Below, piece by piece: positions 48,465 to 60,028 of a stretch of 64,000 nucleotides of DNA. The stretch is taken from contig NZ_CP140614.1 in NCBI RefSeq assembly GCF_036556685.1, forward strand, positions 496,001-560,000. Reading direction: 5' to 3'. How positions within the stretch are numbered: the stretch's first letter is position 1; every line of letters starts with the position of its first letter. Source of the stretch: Sulfurospirillum sp. 1612 (GTDB taxonomy: Bacteria > Campylobacterota > Campylobacteria > Campylobacterales > Sulfurospirillaceae). The translations under genes and the position numbers were made by a program. A model generated the notes under the pieces. The model was not told where the DNA came from, did no database searches, and saw nothing but the letters and a program-made list of their open reading frames with translations.

Positions 48465-50351
48465 ATGCAAAACAATACGCTATTTCATATGTTCTTAGAT
48501 ACATGTGAAAAAAATAAAGAACAAATAGCATTTATATATAAAATCAAAAATCAAAAATTTGAAGTCAGTTATGCAAAACTTTTTGATGATGTTGTGATAC
48601 TCTCACGAGAATTAAAATCTAAAAAAATCACGAAAAACTCAAAAGTGATGTTCGTGTGTGATAATAGATATGAATGGATGGTAACAGACTTAGCGCTTAT
48701 CTCCCTTGGTGCTATTAGCATACCAAGAGGTAGTGATACCCCTACGCAAGAGTTAGAATTTATCATGAATCACAGCGAGTGTGAATTTTTGATTTTGGAA
48801 ACAGAAAAATTGTACGAGATGCATGAGGCGATGATAAAAAAATTGTCGTTAAAAGCGATTTTTATCTTAGAAGCTGAAAAAATACATACGATTTTTGACA
48901 ATCGGTACTCCTATCAAGATATGCTAAAAGAAAAAATCATTTTTAAAAAAGATATCGAACAATTTTATGAGCGTAAAAACAACTTAAATGAAGATGATAT
49001 CTTTACGCTGATTTACACATCAGGCACTACAGGGACTCCAAAAGGTGTCATCTTGACGCATAAAAATATCATGTACAATGTGCGAGAATTACCCTATCTT
49101 ATCGGTTTGACACGTGAGGATTTATGGGTGAGTATTTTGCCTTCTTGGCATATATTTGAGCGAGCGGCTGAGTATCTAGCGGTCTCAAAAGGATGTTGTG
49201 TTGTGTATTCAAGCATCAAAACATTTGCGGATGATTTGATAGAATTCAAGCCGACTTTGGTTGCAACCGTACCGAGACTTTGGGAATCAATGTACACCAA
49301 AATCAACACCAAACTCAAAAAAGAGAATCCTAAAAAAGCAAAAATATTCAATAAATTAGTAAACATATCTTCTGCTTACAATTACAATCTTCGTGTACTC
49401 AAAGATGAATTACCCATCTTTTCAAAACAAAATTGGCTGTTGCGATATGGTAAAAAAATCCTAAGTGCCATCAAGCTTGGCTTGCTCTATCCTTTGAATC
49501 GTTTTGCAAAAGATAAACTCAAAGCTGTTCAGGAAAAATTTGGAGGGAGACTCCGACTCGCTATCAGTGGGGGAGGAACGCTTCCGGATTTCTTAGACAA
49601 TTGGATTGATGCCATTGGCATCAGAATCGTCAATGCTTATGGGATGACAGAATGTGCTCCAGCCATCACAGGTAGAGCGCTCAATTGTAATACTTTTTCT
49701 ACTTTGGGGACACCCATCAAGGGAACTGAGTTAAAAATCATCGGCGAAGATGGCAGTGAGCTACCTCGCGGGAGCGTTGGAGAGATTATCATCAAAGGGG
49801 AACAAGTCACTCCTGGGTATTATAAAAATGAAGAAGAAAATAAAAAATCATTTACCAAAGATGGGTACTTTAAAAGTGGGGATTTGGGCAAAGTCACTCT
49901 GAAAAATGAGCTTGTCATCACCGGACGCTCCAAAGAGATTATCGTGCTTGCAAGTGGTGAAAATGTTGATCCAAGCAGAATTGAATCGATGATATCCAAG
50001 CTCCCTTTTATAACCGATACCGTACTTGTGGGGCAAGATAAAAAAGGTTTGGGTATGTTGGTGGTCCCAGATTTTGAAGAGTTGAAAGAGTACATCTTCA
50101 AGCATTTTAATAAAGTGGTTCAAAATATGGAACATGTACTAGAAGATAAGAGTATCGTGAGCAAGATTAAAAATGATATGAACAAACAGTTGAATCGTAA
50201 AACGGGATTTAAGCCTTTTGAAAAGCTTCAAAATATTCATTTTTTGAGCGAAGAGTTTAAAGTGGGCGAAGAATTAACCAATACTTTAAAGAAAAAACGC
50301 CATATCATAGAGCAAAAATACAAAGGAATCATCGATAAATTTTTGCATTAA
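48465..50351 (+). CDS. Long-chain fatty acid-CoA ligase (AMP-forming)
   Basis: The 628-residue enzyme activates fatty acids as acyl-adenylates, then acyl-CoA. It has the AMP-binding signature TLIYTSGTTGTPKGVILTHKN (P-loop), ILPSWHIFERAAEY, RLRLAISGGGTLP, NAYGMTECAPAIT and the hinge TGRSKEIIVLASGENVDPSRIE. The ATG at 48465 follows GGAAAC closely. The gene is alone, with its own hairpin upstream (48420-48437) and downstream. Fatty acid length preference is unknown. Confidence 0.9.
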   Translation: MQNNTLFHMFLDTCEKNKEQIAFIYKIKNQKFEVSYAKLFDDVVILSRELKSKKITKNSKVMFVCDNRYEWMVTDLALISLGAISIPRGSDTPTQELEFIMNHSECEFLILETEKLYEMHEAMIKKLSLKAIFILEAEKIHTIFDNRYSYQDMLKEKIIFKKDIEQFYERKNNLNEDDIFTLIYTSGTTGTPKGVILTHKNIMYNVRELPYLIGLTREDLWVSILPSWHIFERAAEYLAVSKGCCVVYSSIKTFADDLIEFKPTLVATVPRLWESMYTKINTKLKKENPKKAKIFNKLVNISSAYNYNLRVLKDELPIFSKQNWLLRYGKKILSAIKLGLLYPLNRFAKDKLKAVQEKFGGRLRLAISGGGTLPDFLDNWIDAIGIRIVNAYGMTECAPAITGRALNCNTFSTLGTPIKGTELKIIGEDGSELPRGSVGEIIIKGEQVTPGYYKNEEENKKSFTKDGYFKSGDLGKVTLKNELVITGRSKEIIVLASGENVDPSRIESMISKLPFITDTVLVGQDKKGLGMLVVPDFEELKEYIFKHFNKVVQNMEHVLEDKSIVSKIKNDMNKQLNRKTGFKPFEKLQNIHFLSEEFKVGEELTNTLKKKRHIIEQKYKGIIDKFLH

Positions 50352-50804: not shown

Positions 50805-50828
50805 TATAGAGCTAATTGAAGCTCTATA
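50805..50828 (-). terminator. Terminator hairpin at the methyltransferase end
   Basis: TATAGAGCT (50805-50813) and AGCTCTATA (50820-50828) form a perfect nine-bp stem with an AATTGA loop. It overlaps the stop codon of the methyltransferase gene and ends the island transcript. Confidence 0.7.
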
Positions 50829-52083
50829 GTAAATCAGTAATTTTTTTTGCAATTTGCTCCGCCATTTTAGGTGGTACAGCATTACCAATTTGTCTAAATA
50901 TAGATGTACGTGGCCCTTCAAAATAAAAGTCATCTGGAAAACTTTGTAACCTTGCAGCTTCTCTTATAGATAACGACCTTAATTGTTTAATATCTGGATG
51001 AATGTAATAATGTCCATCCATAGCCATATGAGCTAAAATAGTATGCGAAGCTTTTTGATCTGATTTAATTACATTAAATCTATTTGTAAAAGTAGTTTTA
51101 TTTTTATGAGTGCACAAATCAGGTCTTCTTCTTGATAATTCACTATAGCAAAGTCTTTCTTTTCTCTCATCCCATGCAATAATTGCTTCTTGATATATCT
51201 CTCTGTCTCTATCATTATGAGGTCTTGTTTCATGTTGAGTTAAAATATTAAAATCCTTTTCCCTTATATGACTTAATTCCAAATATTTATTTGTATTCTC
51301 TACATAGAGATTTTCGCCTTCAATTTTATTACCAGGAAGAGTGAAAGGCAAATCCCTTAATACATCATTTACGGTGATATCTTTATCTAAAATGATTTTA
51401 CTAAAAATAACTTTTGGAAAATTCTTTTGATTTTTTCTCTTTCTTATTCCAACAATTATAATTCTTTTTCTAGTTTGTAAAACACCATAATCACTAGCTA
51501 CCATTTCTTGTTCTTCAAGATGATAACCAGCATTTTCTAAAGCAATTTGTAAATGTCTATAATATTCACCATTGCCTGCCGTTTTGAGTCCAGGAACATT
51601 TTCAAAAACAAATATTTTTGGTTTATATTTTTCTAAAAACTGTACATAAAATTTATATAAAAAATTTCTATGATCATTTTTTACTGACTCTTTCATTCTT
51701 GCTCTTCCAACAATAGAATACGCTTGACAAGGAGGTCCACCAATTATAACATCAATCTTTTTTACTTTATTTCTTTTAATATTAATTGATATATTTTTAT
51801 ATATATCATTCATTGTATCTTCTGAAATTGCTTTATTTATAATTTCATGTTCCTCGTCGATATTAGCTAATCTCAATAATTCAGTGTTTGATATTTTATT
51901 TAATAAATAATCATAATAAATATCAAGTTTATTTTGCTTTCTTAATTTCCAATATGCTTTTCTTGTTTTTAACGTTTGGCATGCATAGTTATCTACTTCT
52001 ACGTGTCCAACAAATGTAGCACCTTGTCTAAAAAAACCTTCTGACAAACCACCTGCACCAGAAAACAAATCTAAAACTACCAT
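50824..52083 (-). CDS. DNA (cytosine-5) methyltransferase
   Basis: The 419-residue enzyme transfers a methyl group to C5 of cytosine. Motif I is DLFSGAGG (residues 5-12), IV is GGPPCQAYS with the catalytic Cys near 119, VI ENVPG (161-165), VIII QTRKRIIIVG (203-212), then IX RREAARLQSFP-like and X GNAVPP. A roughly 75-residue insert lies between motifs II and IV, with a charged KLRKQNK start, so it is larger than Dcm minimal cores. The recognition site is not known. It is the last gene of the island, 78 bases after the AIPR gene, and has its own possible promoter. The ribosome site GGAG is five bases before ATG. The AT content is as high as in the rest of the island. Confidence 0.95.
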   Translation of the reverse strand: MVVLDLFSGAGGLSEGFFRQGATFVGHVEVDNYACQTLKTRKAYWKLRKQNKLDIYYDYLLNKISNTELLRLANIDEEHEIINKAISEDTMNDIYKNISINIKRNKVKKIDVIIGGPPCQAYSIVGRARMKESVKNDHRNFLYKFYVQFLEKYKPKIFVFENVPGLKTAGNGEYYRHLQIALENAGYHLEEQEMVASDYGVLQTRKRIIIVGIRKRKNQKNFPKVIFSKIILDKDITVNDVLRDLPFTLPGNKIEGENLYVENTNKYLELSHIREKDFNILTQHETRPHNDRDREIYQEAIIAWDERKERLCYSELSRRRPDLCTHKNKTTFTNRFNVIKSDQKASHTILAHMAMDGHYYIHPDIKQLRSLSIREAARLQSFPDDFYFEGPRTSIFRQIGNAVPPKMAEQIAKKITDLL

Positions 52084-52116
52084 AATTCTCCATTTTTAAA
52101 TGAATATTTTTTTTGA

Positions 52117-52125
52117 ATTATAACA
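52117..52125 (-). promoter_or_regulatory. Candidate extended -10 promoter of the methyltransferase gene
   Basis: Read on the minus strand, TGTTATAAT is a full extended -10 box (TGnTATAAT). It lies in the 78-base AIPR-methyltransferase gap, with a predicted start about 26 bases before the ATG. The -35 is poor (GGTCTT). It could give methylation an expression route independent of the upstream genes. Confidence 0.45.
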
Positions 52126-52161
52126 GGGGCTCTCTTAATAAGACCTGTATTTAATAGATTA

Positions 52162-54228
52162 TTAAAAATCAATAGAAGACATTCCTTCATCTACAAGTTT
52201 ATTTATTATTTGTATTATTCTTTTTTGTTCCTTATCTGTGGGTATTTTACCAGTTATATTTACATCTCTAATTTTTTGAAGTAATTTTATTTCTGTTTCA
52301 ATTAACATTCTTTTTTCATTTCCCCAATTAATTATTTCATTCCAATTATCTGTAGAAATATGAAATAATTTTTTTAGTAAGTGTAATTCATTATCTATCT
52401 TTTGTTCTTTTTTAGCTTCTTTATTCTCATAATTTAATTGTTGTTGAGAAATCATATTTTCTTTAAATTCTTTCGATAGAATCAAATCATCAGTATTATT
52501 AATAATATCTTTTAATTTAGTCCAACACAATTCTTTTTTACACCATTCAGATATATTTGTAAAATTTTCAGGTGTTTTTGAAATATAAGTATTTATATAT
52601 TTGCTTATATTCTTGATTTCATCCTCAAAATATTGATCAATTCTTTGATTTTTCCATATATTAGAATAATCAATGCTTAACTTCTCTTTTGAAAGTAAAT
52701 ATGAAATTGTCGATAATGTGTATGCTACAATATTTGCTTTATACCCGCCATACCATGGTTCTTTAAATACAATTTTATCACATGTTTTAAAAATTATAAT
52801 TTTTGCTATTGCATGCATATAATAGAGATCATTAAACTCTTTATCATTTTTATTCCACATTGGAACAATAATATTACCAAAAGCTAGGAAATTTTTTTGA
52901 GCACCTTGACTTACTATATGAGGTTTTTCTTCCCAAACCATTAAATATTTAGCTAAATCAGTTTTAGAGAATAATTGATTTTTTGGATTAATTTCCTTAA
53001 ATTCTCTTTTTTTTGCATCTGTTAATTTAGATTGTAATTCAAGATATTGACCTCTAGCTCTTTCATAAAACCATTTAGTTTTATTTAGTTGTCCTTCTTG
53101 TGCTGGTGCCCAAATTCTTCTTGATTTTTCCTCCATTCGAATATGATAAATATCATTTGAGAAAAAATCAGCATCACTTACTTTATTTTGAGTATTTGCA
53201 AATCTTGAAATATTGGGGACAACCTCATTGACATTTTCATCATCGATTATTGTTAACTTCATTTGTACAAATATGTCAGATAAGTCAACTTTATCCATCT
53301 TCATAGTATTAAATAATGAAGCTGTAGTTTGTCCACCATTAACTATTTGAAAATTTTTTAGAGATTTAATTTCATTCTTATCGGTAAGTTTAATATCTTC
53401 AGCAGTTGCTGTTAATCCATTATTGTAAGCAAAAAACATACTTGGATTATCATTAATAGTTTTTCTAATACCTTTGTTTATTTTAGCTCGGAATTGTAAA
53501 AAACTTCTAACATTTGATTCTAATAATTTAGCACCATATTTTTCGTAAAGGCTTGCCAAAACTTTTCCATTGATAACACACAAATATGAACGATAAGGTG
53601 AAGAAGAAATATGTGCAGGTAATGATGGTATTAAGCTATTGAAATCTTCTTCAAAATTTATAATCAGTGTTTCATTCTTATTTTTTGAAGTATCAATATC
53701 GAAAAATCTTTTCATTTCCCAAATATCATATAAAACTTTATAGTCTTTTATTTGTTCCTTAGGTAATTGTTTAACACTTTTACTTAATAATTTATTACTT
53801 ATATAAATGATATTTATAGTTTTAAATCTATTTTGATTTTGATATAAAAAATAAGATATTGCATAACCAGGAGATGTTTCTTCTAAATCTTCATATAGTT
53901 TTTTTTCTATTGATTGATTGAAAAATTTAATTAATCTTTTGATATTTAACTCAATATCTGAGTTCCTCAATGATTTTAGCTCACAATCATCCTCAAAATC
54001 ACAAATAAATAAATTTAAAATCTCTCTATCTTCAATAAACTCAAATCCATCTATTTTCATTCCAATTTTTTTAAAGGGTAAATACGTATAATCTTCTACA
54101 CTACCTTCATCTATTATATATTCTAAAGCTTTATCAAAGAATTGGCTTTCTTTAAAGTCTTCTCCAACATCAGCAGATGTGTAAACTTGTTGCATAAAAT
54201 CATCATAAAATTCTTCTAATTCATTCAT
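52162..54228 (-). CDS. AIPR-family abortive infection/restriction protein
   Basis: The 688-residue protein has the AIPR core: NKGIRKTINDNPSMFFAYNNG and KNFQIVNGGQTTASLFNTM, then NISRFANTQNKVSDADFFSND and IRMEEKSRRIW. The family is linked to phage resistance (first seen in lactococcal Abi proteins) and to R-M systems; its biochemical activity is not fully defined. The start at 54228 follows GGAGATAAAT; the frame is open 36 bases further. It overlaps the nuclease gene by eight bases. The C-terminal half is lysine-rich and unassigned. Confidence 0.85.
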   Translation of the reverse strand: MNELEEFYDDFMQQVYTSADVGEDFKESQFFDKALEYIIDEGSVEDYTYLPFKKIGMKIDGFEFIEDREILNLFICDFEDDCELKSLRNSDIELNIKRLIKFFNQSIEKKLYEDLEETSPGYAISYFLYQNQNRFKTINIIYISNKLLSKSVKQLPKEQIKDYKVLYDIWEMKRFFDIDTSKNKNETLIINFEEDFNSLIPSLPAHISSSPYRSYLCVINGKVLASLYEKYGAKLLESNVRSFLQFRAKINKGIRKTINDNPSMFFAYNNGLTATAEDIKLTDKNEIKSLKNFQIVNGGQTTASLFNTMKMDKVDLSDIFVQMKLTIIDDENVNEVVPNISRFANTQNKVSDADFFSNDIYHIRMEEKSRRIWAPAQEGQLNKTKWFYERARGQYLELQSKLTDAKKREFKEINPKNQLFSKTDLAKYLMVWEEKPHIVSQGAQKNFLAFGNIIVPMWNKNDKEFNDLYYMHAIAKIIIFKTCDKIVFKEPWYGGYKANIVAYTLSTISYLLSKEKLSIDYSNIWKNQRIDQYFEDEIKNISKYINTYISKTPENFTNISEWCKKELCWTKLKDIINNTDDLILSKEFKENMISQQQLNYENKEAKKEQKIDNELHLLKKLFHISTDNWNEIINWGNEKRMLIETEIKLLQKIRDVNITGKIPTDKEQKRIIQIINKLVDEGMSSIDF

Positions 54229-55186
54229 ATTTATCTCCATTAAAAATGATAGGAATATCTTCAACCAAAAATTCTTTGCAAGTATCTAAATTTATTTTGT
54301 AAGTTAGTTTTTCTACTCCATAAGGAATATTTTTTATTTTAGGAAAATTATCTCTAACATTATAAAACTCATCTTTAATGAATAAGAAATAATATTCGGA
54401 GTATTCCTCAATATCCAAAAAACCATAATCCATTAAAAGACTATTAAATTTTTCTTCAAGTAAACTATTTTTCTTTTTTATAATGTTTTTAATATCATTA
54501 ATAAGGTCAAAAATATTAAAAGATTTATCTTCTTTATCTGTACTTTCATTTAATGTAACCACGTATAGTAATAAATTCTTGTATTCACTATACAATTGTT
54601 CAAAAGAAGAAATAGTAATACTATTAACAGAACCTTTAGTTTTAACCTCAACTGCTAAATTATTAAATTCAAAATCTTGAACCGATTTTAAAGGAGCTTT
54701 CCAAAAATTTAATGATTCATCAATACTATACCTATGCAGTAAATGTTCTTTTATAAAGATAAGTTCTCCAACTAAACCTTTTAATTGTCTTTTGTCTATG
54801 ATTTTTTTTGAATTTTTTAAAAAATATTGCCATTTTTCTAATCGTCTAAAAATTATTTTAACTGCTATCTCTTCATTAGTGCTATTTTTAGAAGATTTTA
54901 TAAGATCTTTACATAGTGTATAAAAGATATCTTTATCTTCACTTGATGAAAGTGTAAATATCAATTGTTCAATATTATTGTATGTCCCAATTTTTAAAGA
55001 TATTCCATTTAATTTAGGAAGCTTATTAATTGTAAGTTTTGAATTAGTTTTCATTACAAACAATAAACTGCCATTAATATCTTTGGCCCAATAGAATTCT
55101 AAGATATTATTTTTATCAGCTAAAATACCATTAATATTACTTTTTTTCCCTGAATTTTTAATTTTTTTCCAAGGGTTATTTGTCAT
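54221..55186 (-). CDS. PD-(D/E)XK motif protein (DUF4420-like nuclease)
   Basis: The 321-residue protein carries the restriction-endonuclease-like core GLVGELIFIKEHLLHRYSID (Glu at about 141), QDFEFNNLAVEVKTKGS with Asp at about 171 and the Glu-x-Lys at about 180-182. These are the metal-binding residues of PD-(D/E)XK nucleases. The motif protein family travels with Z1 and AIPR genes. The start at 55186 follows GAGGAAG; the frame is open from 55213. It overlaps Z1 by 11 bases and AIPR by eight. It is the likely cleaving subunit (inference). Confidence 0.85.
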   Translation of the reverse strand: MTNNPWKKIKNSGKKSNINGILADKNNILEFYWAKDINGSLLFVMKTNSKLTINKLPKLNGISLKIGTYNNIEQLIFTLSSSEDKDIFYTLCKDLIKSSKNSTNEEIAVKIIFRRLEKWQYFLKNSKKIIDKRQLKGLVGELIFIKEHLLHRYSIDESLNFWKAPLKSVQDFEFNNLAVEVKTKGSVNSITISSFEQLYSEYKNLLLYVVTLNESTDKEDKSFNIFDLINDIKNIIKKKNSLLEEKFNSLLMDYGFLDIEEYSEYYFLFIKDEFYNVRDNFPKIKNIPYGVEKLTYKINLDTCKEFLVEDIPIIFNGDKYE

Positions 55187-57878
55187 TTTCTTCCTCAATT
55201 TCTTCAAATTCATCCCAATAAGGTTTAATATATTCCTCCCACCATTTTTGATTTACTTTATATAAACCTTTTCTGTTACCATCACAAGAATCTCCATTAG
55301 AAATTTTTGGAAAACTTATAGCATAAGCAGGAACATTTTTAAATTTTTCTGAATCTTTAACTTCAATGATATATAAAATTAATAATGGTTTTTTTCTAAA
55401 TTCTCTGTAATGATTACCAATAGGTTTTACTTTAATTAAATGTTCTTCTATTTCTTCATCAGATAAACCATCTCCTTTTAGTTTGTCTTTTTTAAGGCTT
55501 ATTGCAAATTCAGTGGCTTTTTGAATATCGTCAGGAGTTAAACCTATTTTTTCATCGCTTGGTTGTCCTACTCTATGATTTTTACCACTAATAACTAATA
55601 CATCATCTTCTTGAGGTGCATTCCTTCTAATCTTTCCCGTCTTAAAACCATTTTTAAATGTATAATTTTTATTGTTTGATATATTTATTAAAGAAACATC
55701 CCATATTTTTAATTCTTCAGTTTTTCCTTTTTCAATATAATTAACTAAAGCTTCTGTATCTGTGCTTTGATTTAAAGGATGATTTTTAAAATTATTTAAA
55801 AAGTTGATCACATAATCTACAGAAACATCATTCCATAAATAATTATTGGAATTAGGTATTTTATCTTCTCCAAGAATTAGAATAAAATTATCAAAAGATT
55901 CAAGATTACTTTCAATTACAGTCAGATTACTGCTTAACACCCTAGTTTCAATAAGCTTATTTGAATAACAAACTTCAACAATTGCATCTCTAGCATTGTG
56001 CATTTTGTTTCTAGCTGTTACAATCAAAGATGCAGGATGATCTTTGATTTTTAATCCATAATCACGAGGACTACGCCTATAATATTCCATAATTTTTAGT
56101 TCTTCTTTTAATTCTTCAACTACCTCTGCAATATATCCATACCAATCAATTGCTTCTGCTCTCATAAATACTTTACATAAATCCTCGTATTTATCTCTGT
56201 ATCCAAACCATCTTCCCATTTGTAATAATGTATCATACATCTGAGTATTTCTTAAAAAATAACTTATAGTTAAACCTTCTAATGTAAAACCCCTTGAAAG
56301 AGAATACCCACCTATAGCAATAACATTTAATCCTGTGTCATCATAATCACTATATCTTAAAGGTTCATTTCTACTATTAATTACTAATACTTTAGTTAAT
56401 TGTTCATAATTTACTATTTCTTTAAGAACTTCTTGAAAATCAAATTTATCTAAATTTGAATACTCACCTTCCCATAAGCGATACATTGAGGAAAGTATGT
56501 CATTTTTTAGGATTTCTTTTAGAGTTTTGTTATGATTATATTTTATAAAACGTAGCATGGATTGAACATCTTCATAAAGAATATTTTTTATCTGTTCTTG
56601 AATATCAATACGAAAAGAAACATTAATTAACATTGAATGATGTTTATTTTTGATTCCTCTTAAGCGCTTTATAGCACCTGATAATAAAAATAAATAAACA
56701 GCTTTATACAAACTTTCTGGAAGATATTCAACAATAAAATCTTTAGTATGTTTAACAGGTAAAAATTTTTCATTATCATCAATTTCTATTAAAATATTAG
56801 AACTATCATCTAAAAATATTTTTTTAGCCCCTACATAATTAGATGGAGCCTCAAGTGCAATAATGAAATCTTCTGGAAATAAATCTTCGCCTAAAACTTT
56901 ATCATCATTTTCAGGGTTAATAAATATATTAGCAAATGGTGTTGCTGTATAGCCAACATAACATCTTCTTACAAAAAGTTTTAATATTTCTCTAATTTGT
57001 TTATTAATTTTTGTCGCTTCATCTAAATTTTTTTTAGTATTAACAGATGCATTATCTGCTTCATCATCAATAATTAATAATGGATATTCTGATAGTCTTT
57101 CTTCTGTTGTTGTACTTCTTAACCATTTTAAAATATTATCAAGTGTTCTATAATTTTTTTTAATAACAAGAATCATTGGTTCTTTATAGTCTTTTGGATC
57201 AATACCAAGAGAACGAAGATTTGAAGTTTTAAAATCATTTAGTGTACTTGTCAAACTTCCAGGTCTTCTTTTACAATTTATTTCACCTACCCCGATAATT
57301 TCCTTTTCAAGATTATCAAAGCCTATAAAACCTTCATTAATCCTTTTCTGAGTTTGTTCTCGCAAATTATTATGAATACCCGCTATCAAAATTATAAGCT
57401 TATAACCTACATCAGCAGCTTTGTTAATCAATGAAATATAATTTGCAGTTTTACCAGATTGCACATATCCCATAACAAGACCTTTTTTAATCCAAGAACC
57501 TTCTCGATGGGGGTTCTCTAGATAATCTAGTATTTTTTCATTTTTTTCAAAAATACTATTAACTACTTTTGGTGGATAATTTTCATAATAAAGTAAATAA
57601 TCTTTGTATCTATCTTCATAGTATCTACTTCTTGTTTCAATTTTGTGTAACCAAGGTTCCCAACCTTTTTTTATTACTTCGGTTCCTAGTGGTATAGAAA
57701 TTTGATTTTCTGATATAATTTCTTTGATCAATTGTTCTCTATCTAAATCTGATAAATTGCAATTTAAAACTTGCTCAAATAATGGTATTTTTAAATTTAA
57801 TTCTTCTTTTGTGGGTATCTCTTTATTACTTATAATCAACGTTTTAAGCTGACTTTTTATTTTTTCAAAACAATTCAT
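55176..57878 (-). CDS. Z1-domain protein, helicase-like ATPase
   Basis: The 900-residue protein has Walker A GYVQSGKT (137-144), Walker B-like DDEAD (271-275), and the Z1 domain after residue 400, with NVIAIGGYSLSRGFTLEGLTISYFLR, MYDTLLQMGRWFGYR and RDYGLKIKDHPASLIVTARNK. This is a superfamily II helicase-like arrangement with a Z1-type C-terminal part. In such operons it is thought to translocate on DNA and work with the GHKL ATPase (established by comparative genomics, not by experiment here). It overlaps the GHKL gene by four bases and the nuclease gene by 11. Confidence 0.88.
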   Translation of the reverse strand: MNCFEKIKSQLKTLIISNKEIPTKEELNLKIPLFEQVLNCNLSDLDREQLIKEIISENQISIPLGTEVIKKGWEPWLHKIETRSRYYEDRYKDYLLYYENYPPKVVNSIFEKNEKILDYLENPHREGSWIKKGLVMGYVQSGKTANYISLINKAADVGYKLIILIAGIHNNLREQTQKRINEGFIGFDNLEKEIIGVGEINCKRRPGSLTSTLNDFKTSNLRSLGIDPKDYKEPMILVIKKNYRTLDNILKWLRSTTTEERLSEYPLLIIDDEADNASVNTKKNLDEATKINKQIREILKLFVRRCYVGYTATPFANIFINPENDDKVLGEDLFPEDFIIALEAPSNYVGAKKIFLDDSSNILIEIDDNEKFLPVKHTKDFIVEYLPESLYKAVYLFLLSGAIKRLRGIKNKHHSMLINVSFRIDIQEQIKNILYEDVQSMLRFIKYNHNKTLKEILKNDILSSMYRLWEGEYSNLDKFDFQEVLKEIVNYEQLTKVLVINSRNEPLRYSDYDDTGLNVIAIGGYSLSRGFTLEGLTISYFLRNTQMYDTLLQMGRWFGYRDKYEDLCKVFMRAEAIDWYGYIAEVVEELKEELKIMEYYRRSPRDYGLKIKDHPASLIVTARNKMHNARDAIVEVCYSNKLIETRVLSSNLTVIESNLESFDNFILILGEDKIPNSNNYLWNDVSVDYVINFLNNFKNHPLNQSTDTEALVNYIEKGKTEELKIWDVSLINISNNKNYTFKNGFKTGKIRRNAPQEDDVLVISGKNHRVGQPSDEKIGLTPDDIQKATEFAISLKKDKLKGDGLSDEEIEEHLIKVKPIGNHYREFRKKPLLILYIIEVKDSEKFKNVPAYAISFPKISNGDSCDGNRKGLYKVNQKWWEEYIKPYWDEFEEIEEENDK

Positions 57879-59338
57879 TTAATATTGCCTTCTTCTAGCT
57901 TATTATCAAAAAATTCTTTCCAATCTTTTGTATATTTATTGAAAGGTTCCATTTTATTGAGAACATCTATATTTTCCAATTTAAAGATATTATTTTCATA
58001 TAAAACTATTGCCTTTTCTTCTAACTCTAAATCTGAAATACCATTGTCTAAATTTACTTCTTTAGGATTATTCCCTAAATCTGAATATAATACATCTTTT
58101 GGGAAAAAGCTTGATATCAAGTCTAATATCTCATTTAAATTATGTTTTTGTTCAGTACTTAGTTCTTTAATAAAATTTTTAATCAAAGGATGTTCTTTAT
58201 TTATTAAATATCTTATTTTCCCTCGGGCTGTTATCCGTTCCCAAAAAGCAACATCTGTTGAAATAGCTTTTGTGCCTCTAGACTTATAAATTCTTGAGGA
58301 ACTACCAGCAATTTTATCTATAATTTTTTTTAGTCTTTCTCTAATTATCGATGGAGGAGAAGCATAAGATTTTTTTACATCAATTTTCCATAAGTAATCT
58401 AAACTATTTGGTAAATCAATTTGAATTCGTGCTAGCTTAAACATTTCTGATTGTGGAATTAATCTAAACCAAGTACCTGAAATCAATAATCTTTTGTTTC
58501 TATAAACATAAAAGCCTTGATTTTTTAAATAACCACCTTCTCCTGCATAATAATCATACTCATGTACTGATACTTTTGTATAATGAGGTAAGATATATGG
58601 TCTAATTATTATTTTTTTATTATCAATTTGTATTGATTCTTCTGATAATTCTTGAGTTGCAGGATGATTTATATGAAAAGGATCAAAAGGTTTTAGCTGT
58701 AAATCATTGATATAAATATTTATTTTATCTTTACCTTTTAAAAACCTATGAAAAACTAATTCTAAATGTTTTTGAAGTAAATTAATCTTTTCATAAACTA
58801 TATCTTCAGTTAGGGAAGTTACAGTAGTATCAATAATTCTATCTGTTTCTTCCCATAAAACTAAAGTTCCATGTTTATTCAATGATTCAATTTTATAAAT
58901 ATTATTTATCTCATCATCTTCTAACAATTTTAAAGACCAATCTTCAGTTTCTGCAACATAGTCTAAATCCCATTGTGCTGCAACATTTATTGAATAATTT
59001 GAAGAGATTACCGTAAGTTTTCTACATTGTGAAAATGAAGCAGTTTTTAAACCTAATCCAAATCGTCCTAAATCATTTTCATCTCTATCATCTAATGGAT
59101 TTTGACTTCCAGGTCTCATAGCTTCTATTAATTCATCTTTGTTCATACCAATACCATCATCAATAATAGCAATTGACAATTTTTGATCATAAAAGTCAAA
59201 ATAAATTTTGATATTTTTAGCATTAGCTGTAATACTATTATCAATAATATCAGCAATAGCACTCTCAAATGAATAACCTATATCTCTCAAAGACTCAATA
59301 AGTGAAGATGCTTTAGGTAATAGTCTAATTGAATGCAA
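57875..59338 (-). CDS. GHKL (MORC/MutL-like) ATPase of an R-M system
   Basis: The 487-residue protein has the GHKL ATP-binding elements: SFESAIADIIDNSITANAKN (N-box, about 23-42), IDDGIGMNKDELIEAMR (G1, 59-75) and GRFGLGLKTASFSQC (G2, 91-105). The rest (FHINHPATQELSEE, KNQGFYVYRNKRLLISGTWF) resembles the S5-like transducer of MutL/MORC relatives found in restriction operons. The start is TTG at 59338, with AAGGA just before; no ATG occurs in the first 60 residues. It is the first gene, probably promoter-proximal. Confidence 0.85.
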   Translation of the reverse strand: MHSIRLLPKASSLIESLRDIGYSFESAIADIIDNSITANAKNIKIYFDFYDQKLSIAIIDDGIGMNKDELIEAMRPGSQNPLDDRDENDLGRFGLGLKTASFSQCRKLTVISSNYSINVAAQWDLDYVAETEDWSLKLLEDDEINNIYKIESLNKHGTLVLWEETDRIIDTTVTSLTEDIVYEKINLLQKHLELVFHRFLKGKDKINIYINDLQLKPFDPFHINHPATQELSEESIQIDNKKIIIRPYILPHYTKVSVHEYDYYAGEGGYLKNQGFYVYRNKRLLISGTWFRLIPQSEMFKLARIQIDLPNSLDYLWKIDVKKSYASPPSIIRERLKKIIDKIAGSSSRIYKSRGTKAISTDVAFWERITARGKIRYLINKEHPLIKNFIKELSTEQKHNLNEILDLISSFFPKDVLYSDLGNNPKEVNLDNGISDLELEEKAIVLYENNIFKLENIDVLNKMEPFNKYTKDWKEFFDNKLEEGNIK

Positions 59339-59361
59339 GCTTTTCCTTATAAAATAAACTT

Positions 59362-59390
59362 AAAATATATTATTTAAATATCTCTGACAA
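59362..59390 (-). promoter_or_regulatory. Candidate promoter of the defence operon
   Basis: On the minus strand TTGTCA (59385-59390 as TGACAA) is followed after 17 bases by TATTTT (59362-59367). The predicted start is near 59355, giving a leader of about 17 bases, with AAGGA before the TTG codon of the GHKL gene. The match is moderate. Confidence 0.4.
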
Positions 59391-60028
59391 AGAACTGAAA
59401 TAAATATAATTATCTCTTAGTAAACAAGATTTTGATTCTCTCTATTTATCTATTAACTTCATTATCAATAGTATTTTCATTTAATACTTGAGTGTTTTTA
59501 AAATATTTATTATCATTTTCTCAAGTCTTACAGACATCACTATTTATATCAAGTGGCTATTTTGTATAGAATCTTTTGATTCATTGCTTAAAAAGTCTAT
59601 CTCTATTTGTTTTACTACTATAAATCTCTCTCCAATATTCTATAATCACGTTAATATCTAAGAAAGCATCTTAACTTATTATAAAATTTCACCTATTCTT
59701 CAACATCATGTATTTTCATCAATTTCTCATCTTCCAACAGCTCTAATATTCTTACTAACTGTACGTTTTAGAACTTTCTCTAAATTTCAAACTAAATTGT
59801 TCAACTATGATATAATTTTAATTACTATCGACTACAAATGCAAGACTCAGAGATGTCTCGTTTAATTATCAATAGGTTCAAAGTTTCATTTAGATAAAAA
59901 TAAAACTCTTCCAATTTTGTTCCAACTGTCTCAAAGCTAGACAAGAACTAGATTATTTATAATGGTTACTAAGTTGCCTTTCAAAGGCATATAGTAGTTA
60001 TTTACTCATTATCAGATAAAATTTACAC
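59391..60028. other. AT-rich gene-free stretch at the right end of the island; possible decayed gene
   Basis: No intact gene is seen in these 638 bases. On the minus strand one frame runs from 59670 to 59446 with three internal stops, and another from 59947 to 59825 is open for 40 codons. They may be worn remains of a gene that came with the island, but in such AT-rich DNA this could be chance. It marks the right boundary next to ovoA. Confidence 0.5.

Follow-up and report, generated by a model that had tools for sequence, protein, structure and literature searches.

Five uninterrupted open reading frames were found on the minus strand at positions 50824-59338 of the window, the 64-kb stretch of DNA analysed here. 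They encoded, in this order, a MORC ATPase, a Z1 protein, a DUF4420 nuclease, an AIPR protein and a DNA cytosine-5 (C5) methyltransferase (Table 1). An earlier note, made from the letters and their open reading frames, had given these coordinates, this order and overlaps of four, 11 and eight bases, all of which were borne out, and the frames were intact. The overlaps lay at 57875-57878 (MORC/Z1), 55176-55186 (Z1/DUF4420) and 54221-54228 (DUF4420/AIPR), and AIPR was separated from the methyltransferase by 78 bases. All starts were chosen according to the N-termini of relatives. These supported the TTG at 59338 (MORC), which was preceded by AAGGA, as well as 57878 (Z1) and 52083 (methyltransferase), and favoured 55186 (MTNNPW) over the longest frame at 55213 for DUF4420 and 54228 (MNELEEF) over 54264 for AIPR.

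Table 1. Features of the operon and of the segment that carries it (positions in the window).
Feature	Position	Strand	Evidence
MORC-family GHKL ATPase (MzaB-like), 487 aa, TTG start	57875..59338	-	HATPase_c_3, PADLOC MzaB, motifs
Z1 superfamily-2 helicase-like ATPase (MzaC-like), 900 aa	55176..57878	-	Z1, MzaC, motifs
DUF4420 PD-(D/E)XK nuclease (MzaD-like), 321 aa	54221..55186	-	DUF4420, MzaD, invariant residues, model
AIPR protein (MzaE-like), 688 aa	52162..54228	-	AIPR, AIPR_N, MzaE, invariant residues
DNA cytosine-5 methyltransferase, 419 aa	50824..52083	-	PF00145, DrmMII, motifs
Non-coding, AT-rich region preceding the operon	59339..60028		ORF list, three-frame reading, tblastn
Low-GC block marking the acquired segment	50352..60028		composition profile

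Catalytic motifs were intact throughout. The MORC protein matched HATPase_c_3 (6.5e-39) and the PADLOC model MzaB (8e-85); its GHKL motifs were DIIDNS at residue 30, DDGIGM at 60 and GRFGLGLK at 91, and the S5-domain motif GhXhhpXXRhl read GFYVYRNKRLL at 275. In the Z1 protein (PADLOC MzaC, 1.8e-132) the Z1 domain covered residues 389-618 (7e-71). Its motifs were a Walker A GYVQSGKT at 137, DDEAD at 271, YTATP at 310 and DTLLQMGRWFG at 549, the last corresponding to the helicase signature DThhQXuRhFG. The methyltransferase matched PF00145 (C5 methylase, 2.5e-61) and scored best against the PADLOC model DrmMII (2e-154, full length). It displayed all C5 motifs checked (PPCQ at 117, ENV at 161 and QTRKR at 203) and was the sole PF00145 protein found in the source genome.

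The third protein belonged to family DUF4420 (9.8e-63; PADLOC MzaD, 1.9e-14). E141, D171, E180, K182 and Q197 were invariant in 52 diverse sequences, forming a charged E-D-ExK pattern followed by the invariant Q. Its structural model (pLDDT 92.9) had a helix-strands-helix-strand core, in which these residues fell on a helix, two strands and a short helix after them, matching the succession of elements in a PD-(D/E)XK core. A fold search with this model returned no match at E <= 0.001, and no solved homologue backs it or the AIPR model.

The AIPR protein matched AIPR (8.1e-98), AIPR_N (4.5e-35) and the PADLOC model MzaE (1.6e-74). Thirty residues, many of them polar, were invariant in 60 sequences. 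The model was confident (pLDDT 90), and a fold search detected no significant solved relative; four of the top five PDB matches were pNOB8-type N-domains of ParB, at non-significant E values of 0.07-0.32. A relationship to ParB, GmrSD or DndB was rejected, profile-profile probabilities being below 1 % for all three and no better than controls. At approximately residues 270-360, the strand-helix order and the segments IVNGGQT and ANTQNKV resembled the GxHR and ENIQRE boxes of ParB, a resemblance that received no support from profiles and was retained as a lead only.

Related loci were gathered in a survey seeded from Z1. At least 586 relatives were present in a collection of 84,980 genomes; the 80 best of these were read, along with 27 viral contigs and a set of 18 relatives from the class. 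The sample is biased towards close Z1 relatives, and two of its entries (L024 and L087) are the same operon. The gene order MORC-Z1-DUF4420-AIPR was invariant in the 107 loci carrying the full set, which came from bacteria and viral contigs, and the arrangement is thus not a product of chance. Overlap or abutment of these core genes was near-universal: taking the longest frames, gaps did not exceed 20 bases at 102, 107 and 106 of the 107 loci for the three successive junctions. The S5 motif was displayed by 104 out of 107. Two operons were broken, L038 by splits in MORC and AIPR and L030 by a stop interrupting Z1. Several loci carried additional genes. AbiEi/AbiEii toxin-antitoxin pairs lay near the operon at L027:6889-8530 and L034:4000-5680, and a second AIPR-domain protein, which scored better as AbiU, followed the operon's own AIPR at L097:15807-18014. 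At L031:14255-14758 a small gene matching PADLOC models of methyl-directed restriction overlapped the end of AIPR, the methyltransferase being convergent.

A C5 methyltransferase was encoded nearby in 102 of the 107 loci, most often upstream on the same strand (52), then downstream on the opposite strand (29), downstream on the same strand (17) and upstream on the opposite strand (four). Among the five remaining loci, the methyltransferase was present farther off in two (L022 and L117), one was cut by the end of its contig (L067) and one was L038 with its broken core. The fifth, L036, had an intact core, and its genome displayed only a partial PF00145 match, elsewhere. Vsr endonucleases repair the T:G mismatches left by deaminated 5-methylcytosine. 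They were found at 82 of the 107 loci (for example at L022:6598-7011), in 80 cases within 2.5 kb. Vsr was not found in the source genome or at most operon copies of its class. Its presence in MORC operon neighbourhoods was already noted by Iyer et al. (PMC2292703).

The methyltransferase was less tightly coupled to the core than the core proteins were to each other, pairwise-distance correlations (rho) reaching 0.61-0.75 within the four core proteins versus 0.34-0.40 with the methyltransferase. On two viral contigs (L132:6570-8240 and L129:4905-6590), the methyltransferases were 94 % identical, compared with 35 % for the cores and 29 % for DUF4420; either the whole core or the methyltransferase was exchanged recently. 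Likewise, the methyltransferases of the window and of L031 were 70 % identical and their cores 28 %. Methyltransferase class changed at least 21 times on the core tree, against a minimum of nine and a shuffled mean of 41.3, so that the methyltransferase is best described as a modular component, retained among close cores and exchanged over longer distances. No discordant methyltransferase was encountered in 33 pairs with core identities of 80 % or more. Locus L062 was considered as a candidate for a foreign methyltransferase beside a close core and was discarded, as its contig stops where its relatives have the methyltransferase. Partial Mantel tests for a specificity subunit gave weak signals for Z1 (0.17) and DUF4420 (0.15) and none for MORC and AIPR, and no clear peak was seen along any protein; no conclusion was based on these tests. 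Within the DrmMII-like class, the recognition region was conserved almost like the catalytic part. Exchange may be harmless through one target common to this class, or through loose sensing of methylation by the core.

The source genome (2.38 Mb, single contig) has its named relatives among Campylobacterota. The operon was flanked by an AMP-binding acyl-CoA ligase on one side and OvoA on the other, both housekeeping or metabolic, and RpoB, RpoC and EF-G were encoded farther out in the window. The term defence island, used in the earlier note, was therefore too strong for one operon among housekeeping genes within 64 kb. Its segment displayed ~25 % GC versus 32-42 % in both flanks. Z1 was absent from nine congeners, the operon thus being confined to one genome out of ten sampled in the genus, and was present in 19 out of 397 genomes of the class. 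From the low GC and this scattered occurrence, horizontal acquisition is the simplest reading. Relatives were also encountered on viral contigs and plasmids. The ligase gene (48465-50351) was followed in four congeners by a gene of 610-611 aa (an ABC ATPase in L152, where this was scanned) and here by the operon, indicating that the junction was rearranged. No clean empty site was found in congeners, scans of the edges for repeats gave nothing convincing, and promoter and terminator scans gave no excess over shuffles. The stretch upstream of the operon (59339-60028) contained neither a frame of at least 60 aa on the operon strand (three-frame reading and ORF list) nor an Rfam match. Its interpretation as a pseudogene was rejected, matches being short and at chance level (three-frame reading and tblastn).

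The PADLOC search that the earlier note had proposed matched MORC, Z1, DUF4420 and AIPR to MzaB, MzaC, MzaD and MzaE, respectively. System Mza (mzaABCDE) is said to have been tested against phages by Gao et al. in 2020. It was called validated by Miller et al. (PMC9523054), whose gene list comprises the sigma factor mzaA and mzaBCDE and names no methyltransferase. The window contained homologues of MzaB to MzaE in the same order (PADLOC and NCBIfam models) and, unlike Mza, a C5 methyltransferase. No sigma factor gene was found next to the operon in 59339-60028, the next gene being OvoA, and all four NCBIfam equivalog cut-offs were missed (MzaB 354.6 of 850, MzaC 545.2 of 1500, MzaD 101.8 of 420 and MzaE 343.3 of 1050). 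The operon is on these grounds classed as Mza-like and not as Mza in the strict sense.

The attribution to Iyer, Abhiman and Aravind (2008) made in the earlier note held (PMC2292703). Their type 3 MORC-SF2 helicase-NRE operons carry a MORC S5 motif, a DThhQXuRhFG helicase and an E-D-ExK nuclease, with C5 methylase and AIPR neighbours, and all three signatures were present here (GFYVYRNKRLL; DTLLQMGRWFG; E141/D171/E180/K182). Vsr, frequent in the neighbourhoods of those operons, was absent from the source genome. Judged by these signatures, the operon is a MORC type 3 operon. The same five-gene set was presented in 2022 as putative defence system Type II, wide in bacteria, by Miller et al. (PMC9523054). 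It comprises a Z1 protein of ~925 aa, a PD-(D/E)XK protein (printed as DUF4220), a C5 methyltransferase, AIPR and a MORC-family associate; the present operon corresponds to this definition, no essential difference being found. The gene identities of the earlier note stood, while its account had missed the nearest known systems, namely Mza and this set. The operon type, predicted in 2008 and again in 2022, is widespread; the find is real and not new.

Systems CglI and NgoAVII (PMC4267653, PMC5737866) likewise combine a C5 methyltransferase with a Z1 ATPase that is required for restriction. They are three-gene systems without MORC and AIPR, in which the nuclease is of the PLD-B3 type instead of DUF4420. 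N.CglI, a Z1 protein, is a DNA-dependent ATPase needed to cleave unmethylated sites, and the CglI complex was proposed to translocate along DNA before cutting (PMC4267653, PMC5737866). The earlier note had called the mechanism little studied. This applied to the operon type itself, for which no mechanism study was found in the literature searched, and not to restriction by Z1 ATPases, whose biochemistry has been addressed in these two systems. DISARM (PMC9142583) resembles the operon in having a DrmMII-like methyltransferase and an SF2 ATPase in methylation-dependent defence. No PADLOC match to DrmA, DrmB (DUF1998), DrmC or any other Drm model was obtained here, except for the methyltransferase. 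By gene content the operon is neither of the CglI type nor DISARM.

Overall, this was probably an intact, acquired, ATP-dependent anti-phage operon of the restriction-modification type, MORC/Mza-like and licensed by methylation. Under this reading, the methyltransferase would mark host DNA at cytosine C5 and thereby license the host, and on unmarked DNA the four co-translated core proteins would work as one machine. Z1 would act as a DNA-dependent motor; in CglI, the model for this assignment, the Z1 ATPase consumes ATP on DNA that carries unmethylated sites. MORC would act as an ATP-gated clamp or loop-former, since Iyer et al. proposed looping or clamping by analogy with MutL and topoisomerases (PMC2292703). 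DUF4420 would be the metal-dependent nuclease that makes the DNA break, and its cutting of unmethylated DNA is plausible. AIPR, the weakest part of the scheme, is probably regulatory and would serve as a sensor or regulator. Support comes from the intact motifs, the invariant order with overlapping frames, the linkage to C5 methyltransferases and Vsr, the characterised Z1 protein N.CglI, the related Mza and the signs of acquisition; every step that goes further than motifs and linkage is inferred.

Against this reading, the loose coupling between methyltransferase and core is unlike that of a strict pair with matched sites, L036 has an intact core with no methyltransferase close to it, and the Mza gene list names none. 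A machine repressed by methylation and having no matched site, a model proposed for DISARM, would load by structure or a generic cue, its ATPase being damped by 5-methylcytosine in the host context. The exact methylated sequence would then matter little and methyltransferases would be swappable. The near-identical methyltransferases beside divergent cores (L132/L129, window/L031), the 21 class changes where nine would suffice and the best score against DrmMII all point in this direction. However, close cores kept their methyltransferase, class was strongly clustered on the tree (21 changes versus 41.3 after shuffling), a single target common to the DrmMII-like class may also allow swaps, and DrmA and DrmB were absent; this alternative is thus considered possible and rather unlikely. 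The core might otherwise form a phage-sensing or abortive-infection system that responds to a structure or a protein of the phage, with the methyltransferase as a passenger or regulator. In favour of this are the name of AIPR, which refers to abortive infection, the gene list of Mza, which includes a sigma factor and no methyltransferase (PMC9523054), and locus L036, where the core is intact and no methyltransferase lies close by. The linkage to C5 methyltransferases (102 of 107) and to Vsr, the expected companion of 5-methylcytosine (82 of 107), speaks against it, as does the fact that the sole clearly broken core (L038) was one without an adjacent methyltransferase, and we regard it as improbable. 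That the operon is a decayed or silent acquisition, functionless in this strain, would agree with its narrow distribution among congeners and the lack of Vsr; the five frames are full-length, retain every catalytic motif and have overlapping starts, which makes this very improbable.

A bolder reading, quite doubtful at present, would be a MORC-clamp restriction machine held off by cytosine methylation without one matched sequence. C5 methyltransferases would be pluggable, and AIPR would regulate the machine and might have a nucleotide-gated fold like that of ParB. A question raised by the survey is how the methyltransferase gets exchanged without the machine attacking its own host. The machine may tell own from foreign DNA by a matched site as in CglI or by looser sensing as in DISARM. 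Eukaryotic MORC ATPases compact or silence chromatin. This very common operon type brings a MORC ATPase together with a nuclease and a cytosine methyltransferase, and its compact, intact copy offers a tractable route to what bacterial MORC does to DNA; if the bolder reading were true, a bacterial relative of eukaryotic MORC would be a methylation-responsive DNA clamp.
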